Made by a program: the position numbers and the translations under genes. A stretch of DNA of 64,000 nucleotides from Bulleidia sp. zg-1006 (GTDB taxonomy: Bacteria > Bacillota_I > Bacilli_A > Erysipelotrichales > Erysipelotrichaceae). Location: the NCBI RefSeq assembly GCF_016812035.1, contig NZ_CP069178.1, positions 682,001 to 746,000 on the forward strand. Direction: 5' to 3'. This document shows, one piece after another, positions 14,765 to 18,588 of this stretch. Every line of letters begins with the position of its first letter. The stretch's first letter is position 1. The notes beneath the pieces were generated by a model. That model did not search any database and had not been told where the DNA came from. It was given only the letters and a program-made list of their open reading frames with translations.

Positions 14765-14778
14765 AATTTCAAAAATAA

Positions 14779-14808
14779 AACCAGAAAGCATATGGCTTTC
14801 TGGTTTTT
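14779..14808. terminator. Bidirectional intrinsic terminator
   Basis: AACCAGAAAGC / GCTTTCTGGTT with a five-base loop. T-rich runs lie on the 3' side in both directions, so it can end the secreted-protein transcript from the left and the xer operon from the right. Confidence 0.85.
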
Positions 14809-14858: not shown

Positions 14859-14886
14859 ATTTCGCATAATGTATGTTATGCGATTT
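14859..14886. other. dif: Candidate dif site (chromosome dimer resolution)
   Basis: A 28-bp site made of two 11-bp arms, ATTTCGCATAA and TTATGCGATTT, around the 6-bp centre TGTATG. The arms are inverted copies matching at 9 of 11 positions. The core CGCATAATGTAT..TTATG is the same as in the E. coli dif site as I remember it, with about 20 of 28 positions matching overall. It lies 9 bp from the stop of a Xer-type recombinase gene and exactly where gene orientation switches. Confidence 0.65.
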
Positions 14887-14895
14887 TATTAGTGA

Positions 14896-15789
14896 TTACT
14901 TTTTCTTAGATAAAGGATGAAAGTTTTGATAAGCATCAAATAATTGTTTATTTTGAACATGTGTATAAATCTCTGTTGTCTTGATGTTTGAATGACCAAG
15001 AAGTTCTTGAATGATACGTAAATCAGCACCACCTTGTAGTAAGTGTGTCGCATAAGTATGCCTTAAACTATGTGGTGTAATTTCCTGTTGAAAACCGCAT
15101 TCTACTGTTTTTCTCTTTAAAAGAAGTTGCATGCTTCTTGGCGTGATTTTATTACCAAGACGATTGATAAAGAATGTATTGGTTTTATTCTTGTTCCAAA
15201 GAGGTCGAATTGTGTTTAAATAATGATCTAAATCAACCACTACTTGACTAGGAATAGGTACAATTCTTTCCTTATTCCCTTTACCAAGTACACGAAGTAC
15301 TCCGGTTTCCAATTGCACTTGCGCTATTGTTAAAGAACATAATTCTGAAATGCGTAATCCACAAGCGTAAATTAGCTCTAAGATAGTTCGATTAAGATCC
15401 TGCCTAGGATCAGATCTCATAAAACTATTTAGTAAGCGTTCTACCTCCTCAACACTTAAAAAGGATGGTAAATATTGCTCATCTTTATGAGCTTGAATTA
15501 GAGAAACCGGATTTTCTTCTCCCGTTGAAAATTCGATATCTTCATGAAAATTACGAATACTCGTTGCCATATGAACAACCGAATTTGGAGATTTTATCGC
15601 TGATTGTTTCGTTAAGAAACTTTGTACCAGTTGAAGTGTTACTTGTTTGCTATCTTGAATATGATTTTCTTTTAAATAAGCAATATATTGTCTTAAATCA
15701 TTTTCATACGATTGAATGGTCTTAGGACTTTTCCCTTGGTTAATTTCCAAGTGAAGATGAAATTGTTTGAAAGCTTGTTCTAGTTTCAT
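14896..15789 (-). CDS. xerD: XerC/XerD-type tyrosine recombinase
   Basis: 297 residues, the usual length for chromosomal Xer proteins. N-terminal SAM-like core-binding domain (1-100), then the catalytic domain with Arg146 (ACGLRISEL), Lys170 (LGKGNKER), His240 and Arg243 (HSLRHTYATHL), His266 (LLGHSNI) and Tyr275 (TTEIYTHV). All catalytic residues are present. It is likely to resolve chromosome dimers at dif, and a dif-like site lies directly downstream. The ATG overlaps the dinB stop (ATGA). Whether it acts alone (XerS/XerH style) or with a second Xer cannot be seen here. Confidence 0.92.
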   Translation of the reverse strand: MKLEQAFKQFHLHLEINQGKSPKTIQSYENDLRQYIAYLKENHIQDSKQVTLQLVQSFLTKQSAIKSPNSVVHMATSIRNFHEDIEFSTGEENPVSLIQAHKDEQYLPSFLSVEEVERLLNSFMRSDPRQDLNRTILELIYACGLRISELCSLTIAQVQLETGVLRVLGKGNKERIVPIPSQVVVDLDHYLNTIRPLWNKNKTNTFFINRLGNKITPRSMQLLLKRKTVECGFQQEITPHSLRHTYATHLLQGGADLRIIQELLGHSNIKTTEIYTHVQNKQLFDAYQNFHPLSKKK

Positions 15790-16970
15790 ACCATTTCCTT
15801 CCCCTTTTCTTTTTTCTTAGCTTGATTAGCTCTTTTTAATAAAGGAACAGATGTAAGACGATTGATTTCATCAATCATCTGTTGGGTAGTATCTTTCTTT
15901 TCCATTTCAAATAAATTCAGTTGTTTAGTGGACTGTTGTTTATCCATAAAATCAGTGATTGTAATACCTAAAAGACGAACCGGTTCTTCATATTCCCAAT
16001 ACTGATCAAACAAGCGTAAAGCATGTTCAAAAATATCTGTTTCCAAATAAATCCCCTGTTTCACCGGTAACGATCTGGAAACTGTACGGAAGTTATAATA
16101 AGTGATACGAATGGAAAGTGCTTTACCAACCTTTTTCTCTTTTTCTAAGTTATGGTGTAATTTTTTTGATAAAGAACGTAATAAACCCCTTAATTCTTCA
16201 TAATCCGTTACATCTTCCAGCAAGGTTTCCGATACACCTAGGGATTTTCTTTGCCAATCCAGTTCTAAAGCAGTGTGATCAATGCCATGACATCTATCTA
16301 ATAACGAATGTATTCCGTTCTTAAAGATTTTTTCTAAGTCTTCAATTGGCTTATAATTCGCCAAATCCCCGATAGTTTGAATACCTAATGCTGTTACCTT
16401 TGGTAAAGTCTTTCTGCCAATACCACGCATTTCCTTGACATCTAAAGGCCACAACTTTTCCTTTACATCACGAATACGCAAAACCGTTATTCCCATCGGT
16501 TTTTTCATATCACTTGCCATCTTCGCTAGAAAAAGATTTGGACCGATACCAATCGAACAACCTAGCCCGGTTTTCTGATAAATCATTTTTTGTAATAAAA
16601 TCGCTAAATCTAAAGGATGTTCATATTTTTGAATAGCTTCCGTCATGTCCACGTAACATTCATCAATTGAAGCTTTCTCTACATAAGGAGAAAAGGAATG
16701 AACAATATCCATAAACTCATTAGATAGATTACGATAATACGAATAATGCCCTTCCACAATTTCTAATTCCGGACAAAGTTTCTTCGCTAAAACAATGGGC
16801 ATTGCAGAATGAACGCCATAGACTCTTGCTTCATAAGAAGCTGTTGTTACAACCGAACGTTTTGTTTGACCCGATACAACGATTGGCTTACCCTTTAAAC
16901 TAGGATCTCGAAGAACTTCCGCACTCGCAAAGAAAGCATTTAAATCAACATGAAAATATACTCTAGACAT
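15786..16970 (-). CDS. dinB: DNA polymerase IV (Y family)
   Basis: 394 residues. A translesion polymerase without proofreading. The palm motifs FHVDLNAFFASAE (Asp9) and SIDECYVD (Asp103, Glu104) give the catalytic carboxylates. VYGVHSAMP, the thumb HhH region (DVKEMRGIGRKTLPKV) and the little-finger domain follow. The C-terminal KQLNLFE peptide is a likely beta-clamp-binding motif. It overlaps recN by eight bases and xerD by four, so it is part of one operon. Confidence 0.95.
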   Translation of the reverse strand: MSRVYFHVDLNAFFASAEVLRDPSLKGKPIVVSGQTKRSVVTTASYEARVYGVHSAMPIVLAKKLCPELEIVEGHYSYYRNLSNEFMDIVHSFSPYVEKASIDECYVDMTEAIQKYEHPLDLAILLQKMIYQKTGLGCSIGIGPNLFLAKMASDMKKPMGITVLRIRDVKEKLWPLDVKEMRGIGRKTLPKVTALGIQTIGDLANYKPIEDLEKIFKNGIHSLLDRCHGIDHTALELDWQRKSLGVSETLLEDVTDYEELRGLLRSLSKKLHHNLEKEKKVGKALSIRITYYNFRTVSRSLPVKQGIYLETDIFEHALRLFDQYWEYEEPVRLLGITITDFMDKQQSTKQLNLFEMEKKDTTQQMIDEINRLTSVPLLKRANQAKKKEKGKEMV

Positions 16971-18588
16971 GTTCTAATAGTTCCTTAGCAGCTTCAATGG
17001 CTTTTTCACTACGATTACCAGAGAATAGATAAGCTAGTTCACTCGCTCTTTCTTCTTGATTTAAAAGATGAACCTTCGTTGTGGTCTTTTCTTGATGAAC
17101 GGATTTAGAAACTAAAAATTGATGATGAGCTAAAGAAGCCACTTGAGCTAAATGAGTAACAGAAAATACCTGACAATCTTTCGACAATAAAGCCATCTTT
17201 TCGCCAATCGCTGTTGCGACATGTCCCGATACCCCTGTATCAATTTCATCAAAAACAATCGTTTGAATACCTTGTAACTTAGTAAAGATAATTTTCAATG
17301 CTAACATAAAACGCGATAATTCTCCACCACTTGCGACTTTCGTTAATGACGATAACTTTTCCCCCTTATTCATTGACACGTAAAATTCTACATCATCAAT
17401 GCCGGTTGAATTGCCTTCTATATCCTTAAATAACACTTCAAATTGAGCATAAGGTAACTCCAAATCTTTTAATTGTTGAAGCACTTCTTTCTCTAGGGAT
17501 TTCGCTATTTGGTGACGTTTTTCACTAAGATGATTCGCTTTAGAAGAATATTCTTTAAAATAAAAATTTATCTTTTCATCCAATTTCTTTAAATGGAATT
17601 CTTGCTCACCATAATTAGCTAATTTTTCAGCCAAGTCTTTTTGATAATGAAGCACATCTTCCAAGCGAGGTCCATACTTTCTCTTAAAACGCTGAATTAA
17701 GAATAAGCGTTCTTCTATTTGATTCATTTCTTCCTCATCGAAAAAGTCAGGATTTAATTGATCACGAATTTCTTCCAAACCATCCACTAGGGTTTCATAA
17801 GCTTCATGAATCTTTTCTTGACTTTCATCCACCCCTTTTAATACATCCACCAGTTTCATCGTTTGATAAAGGGAATTGGAGCTTTCTGAATCATAATATT
17901 CAAATAGAGAAAGATAATCTTGAGCAGATTTCTTCATTTCTTTAGCTTGTTTCTCAAGCTGTTTTAGTTTCTCTTCCTCCCCTTGTTGTAAATTCGCTTC
18001 TTCTAGTTCTTGAAGTTGGAATTGATAAAAGTCTAATTCTTCTTCCCCCAGTTTTGTATTTAAAAAGTCTTCTTTTTCTTTTAAGGCTTGCTTATAGTTT
18101 TCATAGGCTTCTTTAACGGCTTTTTTTTGTGCGTGAAGGCGACCATATTCATCTAATAAATAAAGATGTCTTGTTTTTTGCAAAAGATAAGCTGAATCTT
18201 TTTGCCCATGAATGTCCAGTTGGCTTTCAACAAGAGTATGCAAAAAAGACAAAGGGACAACACGATGGTTCACTCTAGCACTTGATTTCCCACTCGCCGC
18301 TATTTCGCGGGTAATGGTGAAGCTATCTTCTTCTATATCAAAACCATTTTCCTGTAAAAAAGAAGCGATAGGACTCTTTGAATCTAAGGAGAAGCTTGCT
18401 TCAATAATGGCTTTATCTTTGGAAACCATAGTGCTTGAAGCTTTTTGCCCTTGTAATAAAGACAAAGCATCCAAGAAAATAGATTTACCCGCTCCTGTTT
18501 CACCTGTGATGGCTGAAAAACCCATTGGAAAATCCAGCTCCAATCGGTCAATTAAAATAAAGTTTTGAATATAGAGATGTTCTAACAT
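16963..18588 (-). CDS. recN: DNA repair ATPase RecN
   Basis: 541 residues, SMC-like. Walker A GETGAGKS (29-36), a long coiled-coil middle (about 150-370), signature VASGGELSRFMLAL and Walker B QTIVFDEIDTGVSG. RecN acts early in double-strand break repair, gathering broken ends. It lies between dxs (3 bp upstream) and dinB (overlapping). The classical Firmicute order has argR and a TlyA-type gene just before recN; neither is here. Confidence 0.96.
   Translation of the reverse strand: MLEHLYIQNFILIDRLELDFPMGFSAITGETGAGKSIFLDALSLLQGQKASSTMVSKDKAIIEASFSLDSKSPIASFLQENGFDIEEDSFTITREIAASGKSSARVNHRVVPLSFLHTLVESQLDIHGQKDSAYLLQKTRHLYLLDEYGRLHAQKKAVKEAYENYKQALKEKEDFLNTKLGEEELDFYQFQLQELEEANLQQGEEEKLKQLEKQAKEMKKSAQDYLSLFEYYDSESSNSLYQTMKLVDVLKGVDESQEKIHEAYETLVDGLEEIRDQLNPDFFDEEEMNQIEERLFLIQRFKRKYGPRLEDVLHYQKDLAEKLANYGEQEFHLKKLDEKINFYFKEYSSKANHLSEKRHQIAKSLEKEVLQQLKDLELPYAQFEVLFKDIEGNSTGIDDVEFYVSMNKGEKLSSLTKVASGGELSRFMLALKIIFTKLQGIQTIVFDEIDTGVSGHVATAIGEKMALLSKDCQVFSVTHLAQVASLAHHQFLVSKSVHQEKTTTKVHLLNQEERASELAYLFSGNRSEKAIEAAKELLEHV

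Follow-up and report, generated by a model that had tools for sequence, protein, structure and literature searches.

The window, the whole stretch of 64,000 nucleotides analyzed here, contains an apparent DNA-repair operon, recN-dinB-xerD (positions 14896–18588), that ends at a 28-bp site with the layout of a chromosomal dif. The 28-mer ATTTCGCATAA-TGTATG-TTATGCGATTT lies on the plus strand and is separated by only 9 bp (14887–14895) from the stop codon of a minus-strand xer open reading frame. The locus comprises the following features:

14859–14886, plus strand: dif site, 28 bp, single copy (sequence, genome search, survey of the order and skew switch)
14859–14869, plus strand: left half-site ATTTCGCATAA, the XerC arm (near-invariant in the order; invariant Arg/Gln in the XerC helix; homology to the E. 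coli dif)
14870–14875, plus strand: centre TGTATG, bounded by the expected cleavage points (sequence; cleavage positions inferred from the E. coli and B. subtilis dif)
14876–14886, plus strand: right half-site TTATGCGATTT, the XerD arm, with a derived CG at dif positions 23–24 (covariation with XerD residues 221 and 218)
14896–15789, minus strand: xerD, a complete tyrosine recombinase of 297 amino acids (orthology from the xerD-deoB synteny of relatives and from trees)
15786–16970, minus strand: dinB (DNA polymerase IV), which overlaps the start of xerD and is probably part of the same operon
16963–18588, minus strand: recN, upstream in the same apparent operon

Uniqueness and chromosomal position of the site

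The initial annotation, which had proposed a dif site here beside a Xer gene, described the geometry correctly: two 11-bp arms, complementary at 9 of 11 positions, surround the 6-bp centre TGTATG, 9 bp from the stop of a complete xer gene. It had also taken the core to be the same as in the E. coli dif, whose centre is TGTATA; the two match at five of six bases. Palindrome geometry was dropped as a proof of dif, as the window holds 29 inverted repeats of the 11-6-11 type with at least 9/11 pairing versus ~17 expected at the same composition. The significance of the site rests instead on its uniqueness in the genome, its coincidence with the skew switch, and its conservation in the order.

The genome is a single contig of 1,545,033 bp (1.545 Mb), in which the 28-mer occurs once at up to three mismatches, and the reversed control sequence not at all. 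The site lies at 697 kb, and dnaA (C-terminal domain) at 1.4 kb. We followed the GC skew in the window and in 20 stretches of 8 kb each sampled from the genome, rather than at every base; it is positive in all sampled stretches between dnaA and 697 kb and negative in all those beyond. Within the window, the cumulative G–C maximum falls at 15,225, 340 bp from the site. The 28-mer thus combines a dif-like 11-6-11 layout with a single copy at the terminus, and the genome encodes XerC, XerD, and an FtsK-γ translocase. The proposed dif is confirmed by its uniqueness, by the skew switch, and by matching sites in 165 of the 196 genomes surveyed in the order; the three checks named at the outset (equally good copies elsewhere, a skew switch near 14.9 kb, and conservation beside xer in relatives) all came out in its favor. 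As for FtsK guidance, the sampled sequence has hardly any copies of the B. subtilis SRS octamer GAGAAGGG (1 vs 0), and the octamers with the greatest strand skew in it are simply rich in A and G.

Two recombinases and an FtsK-γ translocase

The protein encoded next to the site retains the catalytic residues R146, K170, H240, R243, H266, and Y275, and carries R218 and Q221 in its putative DNA-reading helix. Protein-family models were unusable for telling XerC from XerD: the NCBIfam XerD model (TIGR02225) gives the neighboring protein 281.7 bits, below the cut-off of 329.6, and the XerC model a nearly equal 281.5 bits, also below its cut-off, as are the scores of these models on the XerC of this genome. 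Because these scores do not separate the two families, we relied on synteny and trees. In relatives, deoB follows this xer gene, an order shared with the named Bacillales genomes, and the trmFO-linked Xer proteins form a separate clade (support 0.95). The neighboring recombinase groups with the deoB-linked XerD proteins, apart from the trmFO-linked XerC, and on this basis it is assigned as XerD. The genome of the window has no deoB, which fits the 9-bp gap between xerD and dif.

An intact XerC is encoded behind trmFO at 420 kb, 277 kb from dif, and an FtsK-γ domain at 405.7 kb; both XerC and XerD keep their catalytic motifs. An intact XerC together with FtsK-γ points to a two-recombinase system and not to XerS or XerH. 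The 28-mer is very probably the chromosomal dif of a XerC/XerD system, with a right arm that covaries with the recognition helix of XerD, and it would almost certainly be the sole site at which joined sister chromosomes are separated in this Bulleidia-like bacterium. By analogy with established Xer biology, XerC from the trmFO-linked gene would bind the left arm and XerD (14896–15789) the right arm. A septal translocase with the FtsK-γ domain would bring the two copies of dif on a dimeric chromosome together and activate XerD, and strand exchange across TGTATG would split the dimer into monomers.

The system resembles XerCD/dif of Bacillus subtilis (CodV/RipX) and Escherichia coli in its 28-bp 11-6-11 site, its two tyrosine recombinases, its FtsK-γ domain, the location of the site at the skew switch, and the xerC gene behind trmFO. 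It differs in that xerD is linked to dif, and in that the XerD arm of the window carries CG instead of T(A/T), which leaves the arms nearly palindromic. A recombinase gene beside its site at the terminus is a trait shared with XerS/difSL of streptococci and lactococci and XerH/difH of Campylobacterota, and the initial annotation noted that the arrangement is known for such systems; in a module of this kind, the adjacent Xer alone would act on both arms. The near-palindromic arms, both with the CG that goes with Arg/Gln helices, would fit this reading. However, these systems use one recombinase, whereas a second one is present here, an intact XerC that keeps the catalytic motifs and is encoded at the customary place behind trmFO. 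The 6-bp centre is canonical, compared with 11 bp in difSL (PMC5357621), and the XerS model scores only 116 bits on the neighboring protein, far under its cut-off of 267. The same linkage also occurs in relatives with asymmetric arms, so it is not tied to one enzyme. We consider a single-recombinase module very unlikely.

Linkage of xerD and dif across the order

In Bulleidia extructa W1219, the 28-mer is identical, and XerD is 84% identical to that of the window. In that genome, a 265-amino-acid gene absent from the window stands between xerD and dif (L009, 10931–11728). Across the order, a degenerate pattern recovers dif-like sites in the 165 genomes mentioned above, nearly always once per genome and with very few matches to the reversed-pattern control. 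The linkage of xer and dif was scored in the 66 genomes that carry the site and the best Xer match on one contig, with G117 and G084 counted once each. The two lie within 20 kb in 65 of these genomes; xer points at dif, with the site on its 3′ side, in all 66, and dif is on the strand opposite to the xer gene in 61. A common layout is xerD-deoB-dif, in which the gap measures about 1.2 kb. The window is the extreme case of this linkage, with deoB lost; a similar arrangement is found in G035, where the ORF coordinates place the end of dif 2 bp ahead of the stop codon of xerD. In four members of the genus of the window (G142, G117, G084, and G146), dif is inverted relative to xerD, the right arms are of the CG type, and the sites are near-palindromic; arm orientation may be less constrained in these genomes.

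As a rule, xerD and dif are linked in the order, and the linkage extends into further families of the class, where 44 of 56 scorable genomes have xer and dif within 20 kb and xer points toward dif in all 56. Families f14 and f22 have xer and dif 51–90 kb apart and in the other relative strand orientation. No Xer occurs within 11 kb of dif in three f2-family neighborhoods (L249, L259, and L265), and the sequence of a fourth (L248) stops before any Xer. As a control, 41 xerD-deoB loci of named genomes were searched with flanks of up to 10 kb: a dif-like site is present in two, L040 (Acholeplasmataceae MAG) and L063 (RUG594), and missing in the other 39, mainly from Bacillales. In two class families with small genomes (f5 and f16), no sampled genome has a dif-like site at up to three mismatches, possibly owing to loss or strong divergence of the Xer/dif system.

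In general, xerD has been reported to lie mostly near the origin (PMC3025954), and published surveys describe two-recombinase systems with scattered xer genes and linked gene–site modules in single-recombinase systems (PMC2731167, PMC5357621). The order-wide and partly class-wide linkage in XerCD genomes breaks this rule and makes dif easy to locate in these genomes. A search of openly accessible papers turned up none that deals with dif in Erysipelotrichia; the site is probably an ordinary dif in function, with an organization not found in that literature.

The survey also bears on whether the 28-mer is a transcription terminator, serving the 3′ end of xerD or of the convergent plus-strand gene. 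On the plus strand, a terminator scan picks out TCGCATAATGTATGTTATGCGA with TTTTATT after it, but the convergent gene is followed first by a strong hairpin at 14777–14807, and the tail on the xerD side lacks a T run. Across the order, the left arm is fixed while the right arm changes, so that pairing is broken and not compensated, and the site is often a gene or more away from xerD. A terminator is therefore highly improbable, even more so than a single-recombinase module.

Second dif-like copies are present on other contigs in a few relatives (G145:C45, G158:C118, G113:C45, G130:C61, G222:C17, and G315:C39) and are possibly plasmids, or elements making use of the Xer system of the host. Elements that exploit Xer recombination are known to use dif, and such second copies could suggest that the 28-mer is the attachment site of an integrating mobile element rather than the chromosomal dif, but the chance of this is negligible for a single-copy site with no second copy flanking an insert and with the housekeeping genes recN-dinB-xerD on one side.

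Covariation of the right arm with the XerD recognition helix

The chromosomal dif of the window stands out by its right arm. The initial annotation had singled out the core as unusually proteobacteria-like; a centre of TGTATA or TGTATG is ordinary for the order, being found in 82 of 120 sites. There is little variation in the XerC arm within the order (ACTTCGCATAA or ATTTCGCATAA in 99 of 120 sites), but the XerD arm is variable, most visibly at positions 22–24. In its XerD arm, the window has TTATGCGA in place of TTATGTAA or TTATGTTA.

We analyzed 119 XerD/dif pairs (105 effective at 80% identity), leaving out G126, whose Xer falls in the XerC clade. Among all 28 × 297 site–residue pairs, dif position 23 with XerD residue 221 gives the strongest covariation. 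Specifically, C23 occurs with Glu or Gln221 in 56 of 56 cases, and T23 with His, Tyr, Trp, Phe, or Asp221 in 60 of 62, the rule being broken by G123 and G162, which combine T23 with Glu/Gln221. One genome from the genus of the window (G102) has returned to T23, with Asp221 replacing Glu. At position 24, A or T goes with Gln218 (or Glu/Val), and G with Arg, Lys, Glu, or Asp218. Position 24 changed ~20 times on the tree, ten times on branches where residue 218 also changes; eight of the other ten changes are A–T exchanges that keep Gln218. This co-change (Fisher P = 2.5e-6) ranks first among the 297 residues and survives Bonferroni correction (~0.007) for the ~2,700 tests made over nine dif positions. 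Position 23 changed only ~4 times, which makes its link to residue 221 less independent than that between position 24 and residue 218.

In a predicted model of XerD (mean pLDDT 85), residues 217–231 form one helix that holds both residues 218 and 221 and is expected to enter the DNA groove. Residues 218, 221, and 222 align with Q221, W224, and H225 of E. coli XerD and with R218, Q221, and K222 of E. coli XerC. XerD H225 and XerC K222 have been proposed as arm-specific base contacts (PMC5241119), and residues 218 and 221 sit next to this position in the alignment. The covariation suggests that XerD residues 218 and 221 read dif bases 24 and 23, respectively. Arg and Gln occupy the two positions in E. 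coli XerC and in each of the 25 XerC entries examined, which comprise 22 distinct sequences; where the XerC arm of those genomes is known, and in E. coli as well, the mirror positions are CG. XerD of the window has the same XerC-type pair, Arg218/Gln221, and its arm also has CG. We infer that this XerD, along with its arm, has evolved convergently to the XerC pair, so that the half-sites differ only at outer positions; the XerC-type CG in the XerD arm renders the arms nearly palindromic.

A broader interpretation, to which we assign even chances, is that the XerD of this lineage evolved a XerC-type DNA-reading helix together with a XerC-type half-site. The two recombinases would then share a nearly palindromic dif, in which the inner half-sites have stopped distinguishing between them, and residues 218/221 would form a general code for dif positions 24/23 and their mirror positions 5/6. 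Candidates for keeping XerC on the left arm are the N-terminal domains, protein–protein contacts, and the centre. In Proteobacteria, the XerD arm is the better conserved, positions 5, 6, 23, and 24 are rarely palindromic, and it has been asked whether conservation of dif position 5 is matched by that of a residue in XerC (PMC2731167). Our data suggest an answer, with Arg at E. coli XerC position 218 as the predicted residue. The covariation yields residue-to-base predictions for arm choice that are directly testable, and lineages in which the XerD arm has drifted closer to that of XerC are natural experiments on how a pair of similar recombinases keeps its order on one site.

Separately, dif position 2, an outer base of the XerC arm, co-changes with the N-terminal XerD residue 30 (P = 4.8e-7), an association that survives Bonferroni correction and is mechanistically unexpected.
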